DNA of 39,356 nt from Vasconcelosia minhoensis LEGE 07310 (GTDB taxonomy: Bacteria > Cyanobacteriota > Cyanobacteriia > Phormidesmidales > Phormidesmidaceae), in the NCBI RefSeq assembly GCF_015207255.1, contig NZ_JADEXG010000051.1, positions 1 to 39,356 on the forward strand, written 5' to 3'. This document shows, one piece after another, positions 979-39,356 of this stretch (its first letter is position 1; the number at the start of each line of letters is the position of its first letter). Both the position numbers and the translations under genes were made by a program. A model generated the notes under the pieces. It was not told where the DNA came from and made no database searches. It was given only the letters and a program-made list of their open reading frames with translations.

Positions 979-1052
979 TCATGTTCTAGCTTTTAATGAA
1001 GTTCTGTTAGTAACCTAATCCGAGATGAACCATCGGCGTTCATAGGCAGCGC

Positions 1053-1069
1053 TATGAAGTGGGTTATGA
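1053..1069. repeat. Copy A of a 17-base repeat flanking the receptor-kinase gene
   Basis: TATGAAGTGGGTTATGA lies just beyond the stop codon of the receptor kinase gene. It matches 16 of 17 bases of a copy at 3485-3501, just upstream of that gene, in the same orientation. The function is unknown. Confidence 0.5.
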
Positions 1070-1071
1070 CC

Positions 1072-3378
1072 TCACTCGGGTAGCGGCACAAAATCATAGC
1101 CGTAGCCCGAGCGATCGCCCTGTCTGACCGTCACTAGCTGAGGCCGCTGGTTGCGATCTCCCGACGGCAGAAACTTCACGCTTTGAGTTGCGCCCTCTGT
1201 CAGAGCCCGATCGCCGCTGAGTACGGCTTCGATCCCCTTGCGGCTAGGCTGATGCTGCAAGGCGGCGACAATCGCCTGGGCCGCGTCATAGGTCGTAGCG
1301 GTACGCCAGCTGACATCGCCGCCCCAGTAGTCGTGAGAGCGTTGGGCAAACGCCGATGCTCGATGCGCTTGTAGATGCCAGGGAATGGCTACGACTAGCT
1401 GGGTTGCGGCTGGCCCAGCCCGGTCTAAAATTTTGGGATTGTACAAGCTATCACCGCCCAGCAGCGGCAGTTCGCCTTGGTTCGCGGCAATCACCCCCAA
1501 GACCGGGTCAAGAGTCGGGGTATTGGCGGCCAGCATCAGCACCTCAGCTCCCGCTTGCCGGGCTCGCTGAACGGCTCTAGCCGCATCGTTGCGAGTGTTT
1601 AACTGGGTCAGATCGAACTCGCTGACTACCTCGCCGCCGTCGCTATAGAGCGCCTTGGTAAATTCATGTTTGAGCGATTGGCTGTAGTTACTTTCGGAGT
1701 TATAAAAAATGGCGGCCTTACGGTGGTGCAGCGTTTCGAGCTGATAGCTGGCGAGGGCAGAAGCGGCAAAGCGATCGCTCGGCGCGGTGCGAAAGATATA
1801 GTCGCCCAGGCTAGAAATTTCAACTGAAGTACTCGTAGGCGAAACCATGGGCAGCTCTTTCTGTTGATAAACTGGGGCAGCAGCCAAAGTAGTATCGCTG
1901 CTGAAATGACCAATAACTGCCAGGATGGAGGGGTCTGAAGTTAGCGTATGCGCTAGCTGCCGGGCAATGATAGGATTGTTGTCGTCGTTTACAATCAGGA
2001 CTTTAAGGGGGATGCCAGCAATACCTCCGGCCCGATTGACTTCATCTTGGACTTGAGCCATGCCACGCAGAATTTCTAAGGCCGGATTTGTACTTTCTTT
2101 GAGTGGGGCCGCTACCGCAAATGTGTAGGCACGGCGCTCGCCAATTCGGGCATTGTTTAAGTAAATCAGTGCTTCTGGGTCATTGCGCTGGGTTCCGAGT
2201 AAGGCTTCGAAAAGGTCGGTTGCCAGCGAATAGCGACTGTCAGCGTAAGCTGCAATCGCAAGCTGTTTGAAGTCAGAAGTCTGGGGGAGCAGGCTGCGTT
2301 CCCCAAAGCTAAGCCGATTGGCCATGGTATCTGGGTTAGGGTCAGACCGATCTGCGCTATTGCTGGCTGCCGTAACCGCTACAGTCGGCTGTGGCGAGTG
2401 CGCTAGCTCCCTAAAGAGCGTAGCTGAGCAGAGTGCAACGAAAACGACAAAGCTAACTATGCTAGCGTTGGACAGGGTTTGCCCATCCTTAAGCCTCGGA
2501 GTTTGGTCAGCGTGGGAATTCTTTACTTTGGCGATATCAGGGGCATAGCCGTGCTTCTGGCGATTGGGCCTGACCGGATTTAGTGCCGACTGAGCCTGTT
2601 GTACGGTTCGAAACCGGTCTTCAAGATCAGGTTGTAACAGCCTCTCTAGCCATCTGCACAAGACGGGTGAGAGCGATACCCGCGAACGAAACCAGATTTG
2701 ATTGCGCCACCTTGGCAGAGTTTCGGGTGACTCTCCCAAAGCCAGAAACAGCAGGGTCAGGCCCAAGCTGTATAGGTCTGAAGCAAAGCAAGCCTGGCCG
2801 CGGAGCTGCTCGGGGGGCATGTAGTCCAGCGTGCCAACGAGAGTGTCGCTGCCAATCGCGGTCTGACGATAAATATTTTTGACTGCGCCAAAGTCAACCA
2901 GAGAGAGCTGACCTTGGGACTGGTAAATTAGGTTGTCGGGCTTGATATCGCGGTGGATGACGGCGGGTTCACAGGTGTGCAAATATTGCAAAATAGTGAG
3001 AATCTGCTGCGCGATCTCAACTATCTCCGTTTCGCCAAATTGCCGTCCCGCTTTCACTAGATTTGCCAAAGATTCCCCAGCAGCCAGCGACTGCACGAGA
3101 TGAAAATGTTGATCGGCGTCTTCGTTGGTCTGGAAATAGTCGATATATCTGGGAATACCGGGGTGATCCAGCCGTTTTAAGACCTGAGCTTCTCGCTCAA
3201 ACAGGTCGAGCATCTTCCAATCGTCAATTTGCTTCAGTGAGAGGACTTTGATCGCCACCGGGCAGTCCAAGTCAATCATTTGAGCTTTATAGGTATGGCC
3301 AGTGCTGCCCTGGCCCAAAGTTGACAAAATTTGATAGCGATCGCTCAGGGCGTGACCGCGAGTATAGGGAATCAGCAT
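1072..3378 (-). CDS. Ser/Thr protein kinase fused to a periplasmic ligand-binding domain
   Basis: A membrane receptor kinase of 768 residues. The Hanks-type kinase domain spans about residues 15-265: Gly-rich loop GQGSTG, K44 in VAIK, E63 of helix C, catalytic HRDIKPDN with D144, and DFG at 162-164. One membrane segment (306-325) follows. A TPR-like stretch (about 368-412) precedes a type I periplasmic-binding fold of the branched-chain amino-acid (Peripla_BP_6) type from about 418 to 755. This architecture is known in cyanobacteria; it would sense an extracytoplasmic ligand and phosphorylate cytoplasmic proteins. The start was set at the ATG 3378-3376 because GGAGGT lies at 3389-3384, six bases upstream; a longer frame back to 3444 lacks such support. 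It is divergent from the STAND ATPase gene. The ligand is not predictable. Confidence 0.88.
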   Translation of the reverse strand: MLIPYTRGHALSDRYQILSTLGQGSTGHTYKAQMIDLDCPVAIKVLSLKQIDDWKMLDLFEREAQVLKRLDHPGIPRYIDYFQTNEDADQHFHLVQSLAAGESLANLVKAGRQFGETEIVEIAQQILTILQYLHTCEPAVIHRDIKPDNLIYQSQGQLSLVDFGAVKNIYRQTAIGSDTLVGTLDYMPPEQLRGQACFASDLYSLGLTLLFLALGESPETLPRWRNQIWFRSRVSLSPVLCRWLERLLQPDLEDRFRTVQQAQSALNPVRPNRQKHGYAPDIAKVKNSHADQTPRLKDGQTLSNASIVSFVVFVALCSATLFRELAHSPQPTVAVTAASNSADRSDPNPDTMANRLSFGERSLLPQTSDFKQLAIAAYADSRYSLATDLFEALLGTQRNDPEALIYLNNARIGERRAYTFAVAAPLKESTNPALEILRGMAQVQDEVNRAGGIAGIPLKVLIVNDDNNPIIARQLAHTLTSDPSILAVIGHFSSDTTLAAAPVYQQKELPMVSPTSTSVEISSLGDYIFRTAPSDRFAASALASYQLETLHHRKAAIFYNSESNYSQSLKHEFTKALYSDGGEVVSEFDLTQLNTRNDAARAVQRARQAGAEVLMLAANTPTLDPVLGVIAANQGELPLLGGDSLYNPKILDRAGPAATQLVVAIPWHLQAHRASAFAQRSHDYWGGDVSWRTATTYDAAQAIVAALQHQPSRKGIEAVLSGDRALTEGATQSVKFLPSGDRNQRPQLVTVRQGDRSGYGYDFVPLPE

Positions 3379-3383
3379 GGAGC

Positions 3384-3389
3384 ACCTCC
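3384..3389 (-). promoter_or_regulatory. Strong Shine-Dalgarno fixing the receptor-kinase start
   Basis: GGAGGT on the minus strand, with its last base five nucleotides from the ATG at 3378. It decides in favour of the internal start over the upstream frame beginning at 3444. Confidence 0.7.
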
Positions 3390-3484
3390 AATAGTAGAAG
3401 CCATAGGCCGAAAAGCTTGGCTTAGAAAATTTAGGTACCCTCAAACTTAGTTAGGCCAGATGCCATCCGGCGGATAGAAGCGGT

Positions 3485-3501
3485 TATGAAGTTGGTTATG
3501 A
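3485..3501. repeat. Copy B of a 17-base repeat, in the divergent promoter region
   Basis: TATGAAGTTGGTTATGA sits between the divergent receptor kinase and STAND genes. It pairs with the copy at 1053-1069 (one mismatch). Inside it GGTTATGAA is repeated with a three-base gap (3482-3490 and 3494-3502), which would suit a dimeric regulator, but this is inference. Confidence 0.45.
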
Positions 3502-3564
3502 ACTGTCAGCTCAGGCGAACAGTTCCGCTAGGATAAAGTCACTCGTTAGCGGATTGCCCAATCC

Positions 3565-4911
3565 ATGCTTCCTCCGCCTACGCTATTTACCGAAGCGGCT
3601 CAGGGCTGGCACTTAGAGCGCCTCTATGCCGACCTGGCGGTGGCCAAGGGCCAGTTCGCTTCCCATAAGAAGCCGGGTCTTACCTCGGTTGAGAAAGTCA
3701 GGCTGCGAGGATTGCTGTGTGGTTACAGCCCCGCCGAAATTGCTCAACAGCAGTTCACGGCGATTAAGACAGTGGAGGTTGCCCTGAGTCAGACGCTCTA
3801 TCGCTACGTCGAGGCGCTAACTGCGCGATCGCTGAATACCTTAGAAAGCTGGCGCAATGTCGCCGACTGGCTGCGGCAGGCGGGGTACGAAAACGCGGTG
3901 ATTGAAATTAACTGGCAGCAGGTTCCTGACGTGCCAGTTTTCTACGGACGGCAGACAGAGCTGAGCCAGCTTCGGGACTGGGTCGAGCCATCAGCCGCAT
4001 TGGCCTGCCGCCTGATTACGCTCTATGGCCCCGGCGGCATTGGTAAGACGACGCTGGCGATTAAGCTGGCGGAGGCGACGCGATCGCGCTTTGACTGTCT
4101 GATTTGGCAGTCCCTCCGTCACCGGCCCCAGCTCACCGCCGTCCTCTCTCATTGGCTCAAAGCTTTGCCCCAGCTACCGACGGCTCCTGCTGCATCGCTG
4201 TATGAGCAGATCTCTCAGCTCATGGCCTATCTGCGCGATCGCCGCTGCCTGATCCTGCTCGACAATCTCGATACAGTGCTACAACCGGGCAACCTGGCGG
4301 GTCAATACCAGGAGACTTACCGCGACTACAGCGAGCTAATTCGACGTTTGGGCGAAGAGCAGCATACCAGCTGCGTTATCATCACCAGCCGCGAACTCAC
4401 CCGCGAGATTGCCCGACTGACCGGACCGCAGTGTCCCGTGCGATCGCTAAAGATTCAGGGATTGGGTCCCGCCGCCCGCCAGATCTTGGCCGAAGAAAAT
4501 CTACAGGAAGATCCGCAGTGGAACCAGCTGATTCGGATCTACCGGGGCAATCCGCTGATTCTCAAGCTAGTCTCTAATACGATTCGGGAAATCTTTAGCG
4601 GCAGCGTCATCAGCTTTCTCAGGCAGGGGATTACGCTGATTACGAGCGACGTCAGTCGGCTGATTGAGCAGCAGTTTGAGCGGCTTTGCCCGGCTGAGCA
4701 AAGCTTGCTCTACCGGCTGGCTAGGGCAGGCGAACCGCTCCCGCCGGAAGCCCTGCAGCAGCCCCCCGGGCCAGAGACTTTCCAGGCGCTGGAGTCGCTG
4801 GTGCGGCGCTCTTTGGTTGAGCGCAGCGCCGCTGGCTTCACCTTGCGCCCGGTGGTTAAAGAATACGTCTATGCCCGCTGGCAGCGTGAGCAAAGAGAGA
4901 CCTCAGCGTGA
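3565..4911 (+). CDS. NB-ARC STAND ATPase without sensor repeats
   Basis: A 448-residue signalling ATPase. The N-terminal part (about 1-120) contains a helix-turn-helix-like segment (SPAEIAQQQFTAIKTVEVAL), similar in position to the N-terminal domains of cyanobacterial NB-ARC proteins. The NB-ARC core has Walker A GPGGIGKTT at 155-163, Walker B LILLDNLD at 229-236, a sensor-like IITSRE segment and a GLPL-like GNPLILKL motif, followed by a winged-helix region. The usual C-terminal sensor (WD40, TPR or HEAT repeats) is missing, as the protein ends soon after the winged helix. Its TGA overlaps the GTG start of the next gene (GTGA), so the two are probably translationally coupled. Inference: an ATP-dependent switch acting with the adjoining kinases. 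It could instead be a truncated transcription regulator. Confidence 0.85.
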   Translation: MLPPPTLFTEAAQGWHLERLYADLAVAKGQFASHKKPGLTSVEKVRLRGLLCGYSPAEIAQQQFTAIKTVEVALSQTLYRYVEALTARSLNTLESWRNVADWLRQAGYENAVIEINWQQVPDVPVFYGRQTELSQLRDWVEPSAALACRLITLYGPGGIGKTTLAIKLAEATRSRFDCLIWQSLRHRPQLTAVLSHWLKALPQLPTAPAASLYEQISQLMAYLRDRRCLILLDNLDTVLQPGNLAGQYQETYRDYSELIRRLGEEQHTSCVIITSRELTREIARLTGPQCPVRSLKIQGLGPAARQILAEENLQEDPQWNQLIRIYRGNPLILKLVSNTIREIFSGSVISFLRQGITLITSDVSRLIEQQFERLCPAEQSLLYRLARAGEPLPPEALQQPPGPETFQALESLVRRSLVERSAAGFTLRPVVKEYVYARWQREQRETSA

Positions 4912-6017
4912 GCTACTGTATCAACCCCAAATGTAGCCATCGGCTCAATCCAGACGCGCAGCAGACCTGTCAAGCCTGCGGGACGCCGCTGATGGTGCAG
5001 CAGCGATACCGGCTGCTGGAGCCTCTGCGGGCGCTAGACGAATGGGACACGACCGAGATTTTTGAGGTCGATGACGGCGGCCAGCGGCGGGTGTTCAAAA
5101 TTCTGAAGGCGGCTAAGCTGCTGCCCCATTTTCAGCGAGAGGCTCAGACCCTGCAGCGGGTCAGGCATCCTGGGATTCCACAGGTCGAGCCAGACGGCTT
5201 TTTTACGATCGAGGTGCCCGCTGGGCAGGTGCATTGTCTGGTGATGGAGAAGGTTGCAGGACACACGTTAGAGCAGTGGCTCAAAGAACACGGCCCGATT
5301 TCAGAATCATTAGCGGTTGAATGGCTGGGCCAGATGGGTGAAATTCTCCATCAGATTCACACCCAAGGTCTGTTTCATCGGGATATCAAACTCTCCAATA
5401 TGATGCTGCGGCCCCAGGGTCAGCTGGTCCTGATCGACTTTGGGACGGTGCGTCCTGTTACCAATACCTATCTGGCTAAAATCGCGGTTGCGCAAGAGGT
5501 CACCAGCGTGGTTTCTCCGGGGTATACCCCGCTGGAGCAGATCAACGGCAAGGCCGTCCCGCAGTCCGACTTTTACGCCCTAGGTCGCTCTATTGTGCAT
5601 CTGCTTACCGGGCAGCACCCCGTTGGCCTCCCTGAAGATGACCAGACCGGCGAGCTGGGCTGGCAGCCGAGCGCCCCGCCCCTTTCTCCGCGACTGGCAC
5701 AGTTGATTGACCAGCTCATTGCGCCCTTTCCCCGGCAGCGCCCGCTCAGTGCCCAGGCCATTTTGCAACAGCTGGCCCAGCTGTCTGCTTCAGCGCCATT
5801 GGCGGCTCAGCCTTTGCCCCAGTCAGCGCTGAAAAGGATTCTTCAGCCGTCGCTGCGAACTTTAGTTGCGCTCAACGTGGGGCTGCTGTGCTTAAATCTA
5901 CTGCTGGGCTGGTATCGATTCGCGTCACCTGCGGACACCGATCAGAGCTATGAAGCGGCTAACGGGGTTAGTTTGCCGCTAGCCAACGTCAGCCTAGCGA
6001 AGTTCAACCGGCTTTGA
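4908..6017 (+). CDS. 4-Cys-type Ser/Thr protein kinase with C-terminal membrane anchor
   Basis: 369 residues. An N-terminal zinc-ribbon-like motif has cysteines at 4, 9, 21 and 24 (CINPKC ... CQAC), as in cyanobacterial 4-Cys kinases. The kinase domain (about 33-290) has K64, E78, HRDIKLSN with D159 and DFG at 177-179. The Gly-rich loop is degenerate, with no GxGxxG, and the usual HRDIKPxN proline is Leu, so catalytic strength is uncertain. A hydrophobic segment at 317-337 probably anchors the protein. The GTG start overlaps the STAND gene stop, which implies coupled expression. The 3' end overlaps the convergent binding-protein gene by 14 bases. Substrates are unknown; the adjacent STAND ATPase is the obvious candidate partner (inference). 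Confidence 0.85.
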   Translation: MSYCINPKCSHRLNPDAQQTCQACGTPLMVQQRYRLLEPLRALDEWDTTEIFEVDDGGQRRVFKILKAAKLLPHFQREAQTLQRVRHPGIPQVEPDGFFTIEVPAGQVHCLVMEKVAGHTLEQWLKEHGPISESLAVEWLGQMGEILHQIHTQGLFHRDIKLSNMMLRPQGQLVLIDFGTVRPVTNTYLAKIAVAQEVTSVVSPGYTPLEQINGKAVPQSDFYALGRSIVHLLTGQHPVGLPEDDQTGELGWQPSAPPLSPRLAQLIDQLIAPFPRQRPLSAQAILQQLAQLSASAPLAAQPLPQSALKRILQPSLRTLVALNVGLLCLNLLLGWYRFASPADTDQSYEAANGVSLPLANVSLAKFNRL

Positions 6018-7317
6018 GCAGCGCCCGAGTCTGAGCCGCCGCTTCCTGCATCTCAGTTTGGATGAACGTCTGCGATCGCGCCCCCACCAAAATCCGCGAG
6101 AGATGATCTTGCAGCACTTCAGAAAGAGCTGAGTAATGTGGCGACTGGGGCCTTAGCACCGAGCGGGTCTGGAGCCAGTCTAGGATCTGCGGCAGCTCTG
6201 GATAGGCTTGAACCAAATCGGCATCGTTAAATAACGCCGTCCGACTGGGCAGGTATCCCGAGGCTAGCGCGAGTTTTTTCTGAGCTGCCGCGCTCGTCAA
6301 ATATTCCAATGCCCGCCAGGCTGCCTTGGGATGGGCGGTATTGCTGGCGATGCCTAGCCCCCAGCCCCCCTGACAGCCTTCGCCGATACCGCCCTGACTC
6401 GGGACCGGGCGTACCCTGAGCTGAGCCGCTACCGCTGGCTGGCTGGCTTGAATCCGCTTTTGGAAGTAGTGCCAGCCCCGCATCGCGGCGACTTTCCCGG
6501 CCAGAAAGCGGCTGAGCGTCGCCTCTTCATCATCGCTGGTGACATCCCGGGGCGAAATTCCCTGCCGGATCAGCGCCTGTAGCCAGGTCGCAGCCTGAAT
6601 CGCCGCTGGCTGGTCGAGTCCGACTTCCCCTGTCTCAGCGTCCAACCAAAATCCGCCAAACCCGGCTAAAACTTCGCTGAACATCACCGCTAGCCCCTCA
6701 TATTGCCTGCCCTGCCAGAGATAGCCCGCGCTCAGAGACTGCGCCTGCTGGGCCGCTGCGATCGCGGTTTGCAGCTGCTCAAAGCTGATGGACTCTGCGG
6801 GTGGCAGAGACAGTAAGTCCTGCCGGTAGAACAAAAGTCCCAAATCGGTATGCATTGGCAGCCGATAGAAATTGCCTCTGTGCTTTCCGGCTTCTACCTC
6901 ACTCGGTAAAAATGCGGCCAGATCGACCGAGTCTGACCGCGAAATATCTTGGGAGAGATCTCGCAGTCCCCCGGCGGCGGCAAACTGCTCTAGCCAGACG
7001 ATATCGATATACACCAGGTCATATCGAGACCTAGCGGTTTCTGACTGAGCCGCGGATTCGAAACTGTCTGCATAAATTGCCCGCAAATTGTCTGTCGTAT
7101 AGTCATTGTCTACCCGATAAGCGATGTGAATGCCGGGGTTTTGGGCTTCGAAGTCCTCAATTAGCTCGCTCCAGTAGGCTGCTTCCACTGAGGGAATTCT
7201 CAGCGAAAGCGTCACTGGCCAGGTTGACCACCAGAAAATCAGCGCAATCAGCTGGAGGACTAACAGCAGCCACAGGAACTGAAAGGTTCTAGTTCGTCGC
7301 CGAATTGCTTTGCTCAT
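6004..7317 (-). CDS. Orphan ABC-type extracellular substrate-binding protein (sugar type)
   Basis: 437 residues with a positively charged N-terminus and one hydrophobic segment (about 13-32, FLWLLLVLQLIALIFWW) that would act as signal sequence or anchor. No lipobox cysteine is seen. The rest fits the family 1 / MalE-like solute-binding fold, for example the WGLGIASNTAHPKAAWRALE region near the C-terminus that is typical of trehalose/maltose-type binding proteins. No permease or ATPase gene lies nearby, so any transporter must be encoded elsewhere or the protein serves as a sensor input. It follows glcD by 26 bases on the same strand and may be co-transcribed. Its 3' end overlaps the convergent 4-Cys kinase gene. 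The substrate is unknown. Confidence 0.82.
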   Translation of the reverse strand: MSKAIRRRTRTFQFLWLLLVLQLIALIFWWSTWPVTLSLRIPSVEAAYWSELIEDFEAQNPGIHIAYRVDNDYTTDNLRAIYADSFESAAQSETARSRYDLVYIDIVWLEQFAAAGGLRDLSQDISRSDSVDLAAFLPSEVEAGKHRGNFYRLPMHTDLGLLFYRQDLLSLPPAESISFEQLQTAIAAAQQAQSLSAGYLWQGRQYEGLAVMFSEVLAGFGGFWLDAETGEVGLDQPAAIQAATWLQALIRQGISPRDVTSDDEEATLSRFLAGKVAAMRGWHYFQKRIQASQPAVAAQLRVRPVPSQGGIGEGCQGGWGLGIASNTAHPKAAWRALEYLTSAAAQKKLALASGYLPSRTALFNDADLVQAYPELPQILDWLQTRSVLRPQSPHYSALSEVLQDHLSRILVGARSQTFIQTEMQEAAAQTRALLKAG

Positions 7318-39089: not shown

Positions 39090-39356
39090 AAAGGCTTTAG
39101 AGTATCATGCCGCCTTGGAGGCCCGAGGGAGCCTGACCGTTTGGATAGATGAAGGGGTGCTGAGCGCCTGGAAGAACAAGCAAAAGACTGGCAAGCGAGG
39201 CGCGTCGAATACCTACAGTGACCTAGCGCTAGAGACCTTGCTGACGCTGAAGACAGTGTATCGCTTGAAGCTGCGCCAGACAATCGGGTTTGCTCGCTCT
39301 TTATTCGAGCTGATGTCAGTCGAGCTAGACCTGCCGCACTACAGCACGCTCTCACG
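39082..39356 (+). pseudogene. IS5-type transposase fragment, 5'-truncated and cut by window edge
   Basis: After an in-frame TAG at 39079 the frame reads YHAALEARGSLTVWIDEGVL, then KTGKRGASNTYSDLALETLL, LKTVYRLKLRQTIGFARSL and ELDLPHYSTLS. This matches the N-terminal region of IS5-family DDE transposases (RGSLTxW, TGKRGA, YSD, LTLKxVYxLPLR, LPxPxYSTLSRR). No ATG or GTG precedes the conserved part; only a TTG at 39115, inside it, is available, so the 5' end has been lost. The catalytic DDE region would lie beyond the window. Confidence 0.75.

Follow-up and report, generated by a model that had tools for sequence, protein, structure and literature searches.

The window analysed here (39,356 nt, forward strand of contig NZ_JADEXG010000051.1, GCF_015207255.1, from Vasconcelosia minhoensis LEGE 07310) carries a gene for a short STAND ATPase, followed by a gene for a Ser/Thr kinase with an N-terminal 4-Cys prefix. 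This pair was recovered in every genome with a close STAND orthologue, and comparisons of gene content and order identify the conserved third gene as a gene for a solute-binding protein (SBP) convergent with the kinase gene, and not as the receptor-like kinase gene divergent from the STAND gene. We consider the chances about even that a tethered sugar sensor, the kinase and a STAND regulator with a helix-turn-helix (HTH) domain form a three-protein transmembrane relay. An earlier reading of the window (termed here the original prediction) had grouped the receptor kinase, the STAND ATPase and the 4-Cys kinase into one signalling block. All three genes were confirmed where that reading had placed them, and its 186-base divergent gap was exact, with the receptor kinase ATG at 3378 and the STAND start at 3565. 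The overlap (GTGA) between the STAND stop codon and the GTG start codon of the kinase was likewise as described. The SBP gene, which overlaps the 3' end of the kinase gene from the opposite strand, had been omitted.

Conservation of the STAND-kinase pair

The comparison was based on a sample of 388 genomes spread over the class. Close STAND orthologues (E ≤ 1e-107) were found in 23 genomes from five families, and the 4-Cys kinase gene adjoined the STAND gene in all 23; the adjacency was read via two overlapping contigs in G101, and G002 has an open reading frame inserted between the two genes. The kinase clade was delimited at E ≤ 1e-115 (n = 27; next match 2e-102), and the STAND gene adjoined 25 of its 27 members, the exceptions being those of G018 and G009. 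The overlap between the two sets of genomes had a chance probability of 2.5e-33, a value that ignores shared ancestry. At the loci measured, the two genes overlapped or lay at most 60 bp apart. The conserved pairing claimed by the original prediction was thus borne out (23/23 orthologues and 25/27 clade kinases): the STAND orthologues occurred neither mostly alone nor with a sensor domain of their own and, as had been supposed, the pair was absent from the open-access literature searched. In G018, a gene for a 1430-aa TPR-CHAT (caspase-like) protein lies 22 bp upstream of the clade kinase gene, in the place of the STAND gene (L141, 1308-6831).

Several of the kinases sampled just outside the clade also followed short STAND proteins (440-480 residues), namely those of G375, G154, G347, G328, G149 and G040, the pair in G149 being cut by a contig end. 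These kinases were 559-595 residues long and, where scanned, had TPR repeats after the transmembrane (TM) helix. Such pairs, with TPRs beyond the TM helix, make up a second class of short STAND and 4-Cys kinase genes (L182, L183, L193, L194, L195 and L144). In the kinase-domain tree, 25 SBP-type and five TPR-type paired kinases formed a single branch (support 99), and ten unpaired 4-Cys kinases fell apart from it. A sixth, diverged pair was present in G382, with a kinase that lacks the 4-Cys prefix and lies outside the paired branch. Distances in the STAND and kinase trees were correlated (0.78, with a permutation maximum of 0.57). The shared branch and the correlated distances suggest that the pairing is old and has been largely co-inherited.

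A STAND protein without sensor repeats

The STAND protein has the Walker A motif GPGGIGKTT and matches the Pfam NB-ARC model with 38.7 bits (cut-off 23.5), as well as AAA_16 and NACHT. In its AlphaFold2 (AF2) model, built on 26 relatives (pLDDT 88), an N-terminal domain made of helices leads into the whole core through the winged helix (residues ~112-445). Residues 112-446 align structurally with the core of Apaf-1, PH0952 and MalT, from the nucleotide-binding domain to the winged helix (Z 23.6-23.9). Since the chain stops ~10 residues past the winged-helix domain, C-terminal sensor repeats are absent, as indicated by Pfam and the AF2 model; the same applied to the orthologues of 430-455 aa. 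Superstructure-forming repeats of this kind are usual, but not universal, in the STAND family, the members of which are normally self-contained proteins combining sensor and switch. No effector domain was found on the STAND protein. The plasmid relatives inspected were long NB-ARC proteins of other types, and the STAND-kinase pair was not present among them.

The N-terminal domain is probably a LuxR/NarL-type HTH, as judged from its model (residues 1-115), the listed structural matches of which were nearly all DNA-binding domains of the LuxR/NarL family (best Z 7.1, a modest score). The Foldseek E values were at least 0.08, and the Pfam GerE score was 12.6 bits, under the cut-off of 23.5. A GerE HTH was found in the N-terminal position of the distant paired STAND protein L193 (33.9 bits, same cut-off) and, with a weaker match, of L144. 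In the STAND protein of G192, the N-terminal position was taken by unrelated sequence.

The 4-Cys kinase

The kinase passes the NF045510 model with 41.4 bits (curated cut-off 24). Kinases of this type are defined by a CxxxxC...CxxCG motif at the N-terminus, ahead of the kinase domain. In kinase alignment A2, C4, C9, C21 and C24 were conserved at a level of at least 90%, and are nearly invariant within the clade; Lys64, Glu78, HRD and DFG were also conserved. Through its 4-Cys finger, the kinase may also respond to redox state or zinc. A single C-terminal TM helix (residues ~316-334) bears a conserved Asn323. The glycine-rich loop (residues ~38-62) is degenerate (LRELDEWxPTEIFEV) across the whole clade of SBP-type kinases, with the Lys, Glu, HRD and DFG retained.

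The solute-binding protein as the third member

The protein encoded by the convergent gene matches Pfam SBP_bac_1 (1.6e-30), and its closest solved structure is the trehalose/maltose-binding protein 1eu8 (E 3.7e-92, alignment profile). The SBP gene was convergent with the kinase gene in 21 of the 27 clade genomes and lay at matching contig ends in G007 and G321. It was ~9 kb from the kinase gene in G045 and on another contig in G005 and G018. An SBP of the linked type was therefore present somewhere in all 27 genomes, broken in one (G009). The broken copy, a Gln-type SBP (L238, 4845-6148), is interrupted by an in-frame stop, and the same genome has also lost the STAND gene. In G045, the gene adjoining that for the Gln-type SBP encodes a fusion of a CHAT domain with a periplasmic binding domain of the branched-chain amino-acid type (L148, 7045-9699).

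Relatives of this SBP were found in 186 of the 388 genomes. An ABC permease gene adjoined 19 of the 20 unlinked relatives fetched, and no ABC permease or ATPase gene was present beside the linked SBP genes checked. The transporter-type SBPs look secreted, with a hydrophobic leader and then a signal-peptidase-like junction, whereas the leader of the linked SBPs typically continues into ...LWxxTWP without such a junction. The window SBP has no lipobox, and the linked SBPs look as if they are held by an uncleaved membrane anchor. Comparison of 18 linked-type with 19 transporter-type SBPs revealed eight positions conserved in the linked type only, including Gln22, halfway along the membrane helix. 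All 25 linked-type SBPs examined have this Gln, and none of ~55 others has it at that position. Many residues of the aromatic and charged classes that line sugar sites are shared by the two types, among them D100, D105, W108, Y151, W201, E207, W224, R280, W282 and W319, and the linked SBPs thus probably still bind sugar. In a quick SBP tree, the linked SBPs did not form one clade, whereas 11 unlinked transporter-type SBPs did. Other 4-Cys kinases, at L231 (3482-5347), L232 (6777-8657) and L234 (2889-4751), were convergent with the SBP gene of a sugar ABC transporter; their C-terminus resembles a formylglycine-generating-enzyme domain, as judged by eye.

The TM helix Asn was present in every SBP-type kinase examined, most of which also have Gln, Asn or His some seven positions beyond it. 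TPR-type kinases had no TM helix Asn; more generally, the distant pairs without an SBP sensor lacked it, and most of their kinases bear TPR repeats instead. Two further STAND-kinase-SBP loci, outside the clade, fit this pattern: the SBP Gln and the kinase Asn occur together in G205, and both residues are missing in G158. Contact between the Gln of the SBP helix and the Asn of the kinase helix is plausible, because the two helices share an inside-to-outside orientation.

Table 1. Features of the locus, with positions in the window.
Feature	Position	Strand	Basis
Short STAND ATPase, 448 aa	3565..4911	+	Pfam NB-ARC/AAA_16/NACHT; AF2 model
STAND N-terminal domain, probably LuxR/NarL-type HTH, residues ~1-110	3565..3894	+	AF2 model of residues 1-115
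4-Cys-prefix Ser/Thr kinase, one C-terminal TM helix, short outside tail	4908..6017	+	NF045510, alignment, TM analysis
Membrane-anchored solute-binding protein (SBP_bac_1, trehalose/maltose type)	6004..7317	-	Pfam, profile match 1eu8
Receptor-like kinase: Ser/Thr kinase, TM, TPR-like stretch, branched-chain amino-acid-type binding domain	1072..3378	-	
Divergent intergenic region, 186 bases	3379..3564	.	Part kept in duplicated copy on contig C14

A proposed three-protein relay

Four features can be read from the sequences, and the relay that we propose builds on them: the architecture of the three proteins, the conserved linkage of their genes, the absence of a sensor from the STAND protein, and the pairing of a Gln in one membrane helix with an Asn in the other. 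The SBP, a former sugar-transporter subunit tethered by its uncleaved N-terminal helix, would bind a disaccharide-type ligand outside the cell. Its helix would touch the single helix of the kinase via the buried Gln and Asn, such that the ligand state alters kinase activity. The kinase, co-translated with the STAND protein, would phosphorylate this protein or otherwise hold or release it. The STAND protein, without a sensor of its own, would toggle between a closed ADP form and an open ATP form, and would act through its N-terminal HTH by binding DNA at presumed target genes, most likely as a transcription regulator. The suggestion in the original prediction that partners supply the sensing for this STAND protein is probably right, with the convergent SBP as the candidate sensor and not the receptor kinase.

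Several observations weigh against such a relay. G018 and G009 hold a clade kinase without the STAND gene. The linked-type SBP gene of G005 and G016 is located elsewhere, behind a different NB-ARC-TPR gene. The SBP linkage is weaker evidence than the operon linkage, because convergent genes are not co-transcribed. The HTH assignment falls short of significance for the window STAND protein itself. Finally, the matching of Gln with Asn tracks the gene tree, G205 and G158 providing the sole independent contrast. At the loci of G005 and G016, which belong to one genus (L147, 518-4305; L236, 2139-5886), the Gln-type SBP gene is the second gene, after that for an NB-ARC protein of 809-813 aa; the two reading frames overlap, and TPR repeats were found in the G005 copy.

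The two classes of pair may represent a split STAND family, in which an old pair of HTH-STAND protein and 4-Cys kinase has had its sensor exchanged between branches, a scenario that comes close to even chances without quite reaching them. One branch would use the TPRs on the outer side of the kinase, and the other a recruited SBP docking via the Gln/Asn pair in the membrane. The combination of SBP, kinase and HTH-STAND protein was not found in the open-access literature searched. If the relay is real, a STAND family that has outsourced its sensing to a kinase and a transporter subunit would show how signal inputs are exchanged in evolution. It would also provide two rare gains: a bacterial Ser/Thr kinase would have a likely partner, and its stimulus a likely class, namely disaccharides or compatible-solute sugars.

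Alternative readings of the locus

The relay might have only two parts, the STAND protein and the kinase, with the Cys finger sensing redox state or metal and the SBP as a conserved neighbour with a separate role in sugar scavenging. The stricter operon link of the STAND and kinase genes, relative to the SBP link, is consistent with this alternative, as are the four nearly invariant Cys residues of the kinase clade. The Synechocystis kinase SpkB also carries the 4-Cys motif. Its knock-out has a redox-sensitive phenotype (PMC11863333). However, the linked and transporter SBPs differ in exactly the anchor (Gln22, uncleaved), with no ABC genes beside the former, and the SBP occurs in 27/27 kinase-clade genomes, accompanied by the Asn of the kinase helix. 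We regard a relay of two parts as unlikely.

The locus could also encode a module directed against invaders, in which an NLR-like STAND protein oligomerises on an invader signal from the kinase and kills or arrests the cell. Conflict systems of cyanobacteria commonly contain NB-ARC/STAND and CHAT proteins (PMC7159879, PMC8195603), and the TPR-CHAT gene directly before the clade kinase gene of G018 would fit such a role. The STAND protein nevertheless lacks an effector domain and has an N-terminal HTH-like fold, and the neighbours scanned were metabolic, transport or function-unassigned genes, with no known defence gene among them. The PADLOC PD-T4-6 models matched the kinase with up to 360 bits, but matched the receptor kinase too, and the matches were set aside as those of generic kinase profiles. 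Such models would flag numerous ordinary kinases of cyanobacteria as defensive. The MoxR and vWA partners of the VMAP/iSTAND ternary conflict systems had no Pfam match among the genes scanned in and around the locus, and the passages of the conflict-system literature consulted did not describe the STAND/4-Cys kinase pair. Of the two roles left open by the original prediction, regulation is the more likely, given a LuxR-like N-terminal domain, an SBP of the sugar type and no effector domains; defence gained little support. Cell death is improbable, and keeps a low probability because of the CHAT neighbour in G018.

The receptor kinase combines a kinase domain (Pkinase, E 2.9e-43) with a binding domain (Peripla_BP_6, 1.9e-35; both Pfam) that is leucine-binding-protein-like. 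The full fusion of kinase and periplasmic-binding-protein (PBP) domain adjoined the STAND gene in the window genome and in a truncated copy on contig C14 of G000 (L050), and elsewhere was rare and away from the STAND gene (G005:C1346, G052). The C14 copy spans 3 kb (2976-6008, corresponding to 1042-4089 of the window; 79% DNA identity), with the STAND gene cut after residue 179 and no kinase gene behind it. A further 137 bp of the window (39099-39235) match the start of contig C14 with 99% identity and probably represent a contig-end repeat. The divergent neighbour of the STAND gene was a gene for a kinase-less TPR-PBP protein in G005 and G016, and a DUF2207 gene in many other genomes of the family. 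On this distribution, the receptor kinase was rejected as a third member, contrary to the original prediction, and it is best regarded as a local addition. It is also an already known kind of gene: the kinase and ANF-receptor fusions described in Nostoc in 2005 (PMC1262709) have the same architecture, with no essential difference. Signalling from an amino-acid-sensing receptor kinase to the STAND protein via the shared promoter region is very improbable, as the divergent arrangement in the window, the C14 copy and the similarly placed TPR-PBP genes are outweighed by a fusion that is not beside the STAND gene in any other genome examined, that occurs apart from it, and of which the duplicated version retains STAND residues 1-179 only.

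Comparison with known systems

The long cyanobacterial NB-ARC-WD40 proteins (~1200 aa) have a homologous core, from NB-ARC to winged helix, with 39-46% identity over residues 115-440, but they have ~750 extra C-terminal residues (WD40 where annotated). MalT of E. coli, a STAND protein regulating sugar use (PMC10427625), resembles the window protein in its STAND core and probably in its LuxR-type HTH and its connection with sugars, 8bob_C being among the best matches (Z 23.6). However, MalT and the LAL proteins have their own TPR sensor and a C-terminal HTH, and MalT binds its inducer directly, without a kinase; in the window STAND protein, Pfam and the models revealed no TPR, and the HTH-like domain is N-terminal.

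AfsR structures were among the profile matches, and the NCBIfam AfsK and AfsR models matched weakly (AfsR model, 36 bits versus 1430). In AfsR of Streptomyces, a SARP domain serves for DNA binding and TPRs form the sensor, whereas the window STAND protein has an HTH-like domain and no sensor; Pfam found neither SARP (Trans_reg_C + BTAD) nor TPR in it. AfsK is not known to carry the 4-Cys prefix. As in the window, the genes for a membrane-linked Ser/Thr kinase and an NB-ARC STAND protein are clustered in the AfsK-AfsR system; AfsK phosphorylates the regulator AfsR, with phosphorylation altering ATPase activity more than activation (PMC10936776). The system described there has no SBP partner, whereas an SBP is linked here.

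Control of a Ser/Thr kinase by an outside SBP has a precedent in the nutrient signalling of actinobacteria, in which the solute-binding protein GlnH controls the kinase PknG (PMC6069109, PMC9769921). That system differs in consisting of a lipoprotein SBP, a separate membrane protein (GlnX) and a cytosolic kinase with GarA/OdhI as its substrate, and the window locus has no GlnX-like gene. In the window system, the SBP and the kinase each have a membrane helix of their own, and the partner of the kinase is a STAND protein.

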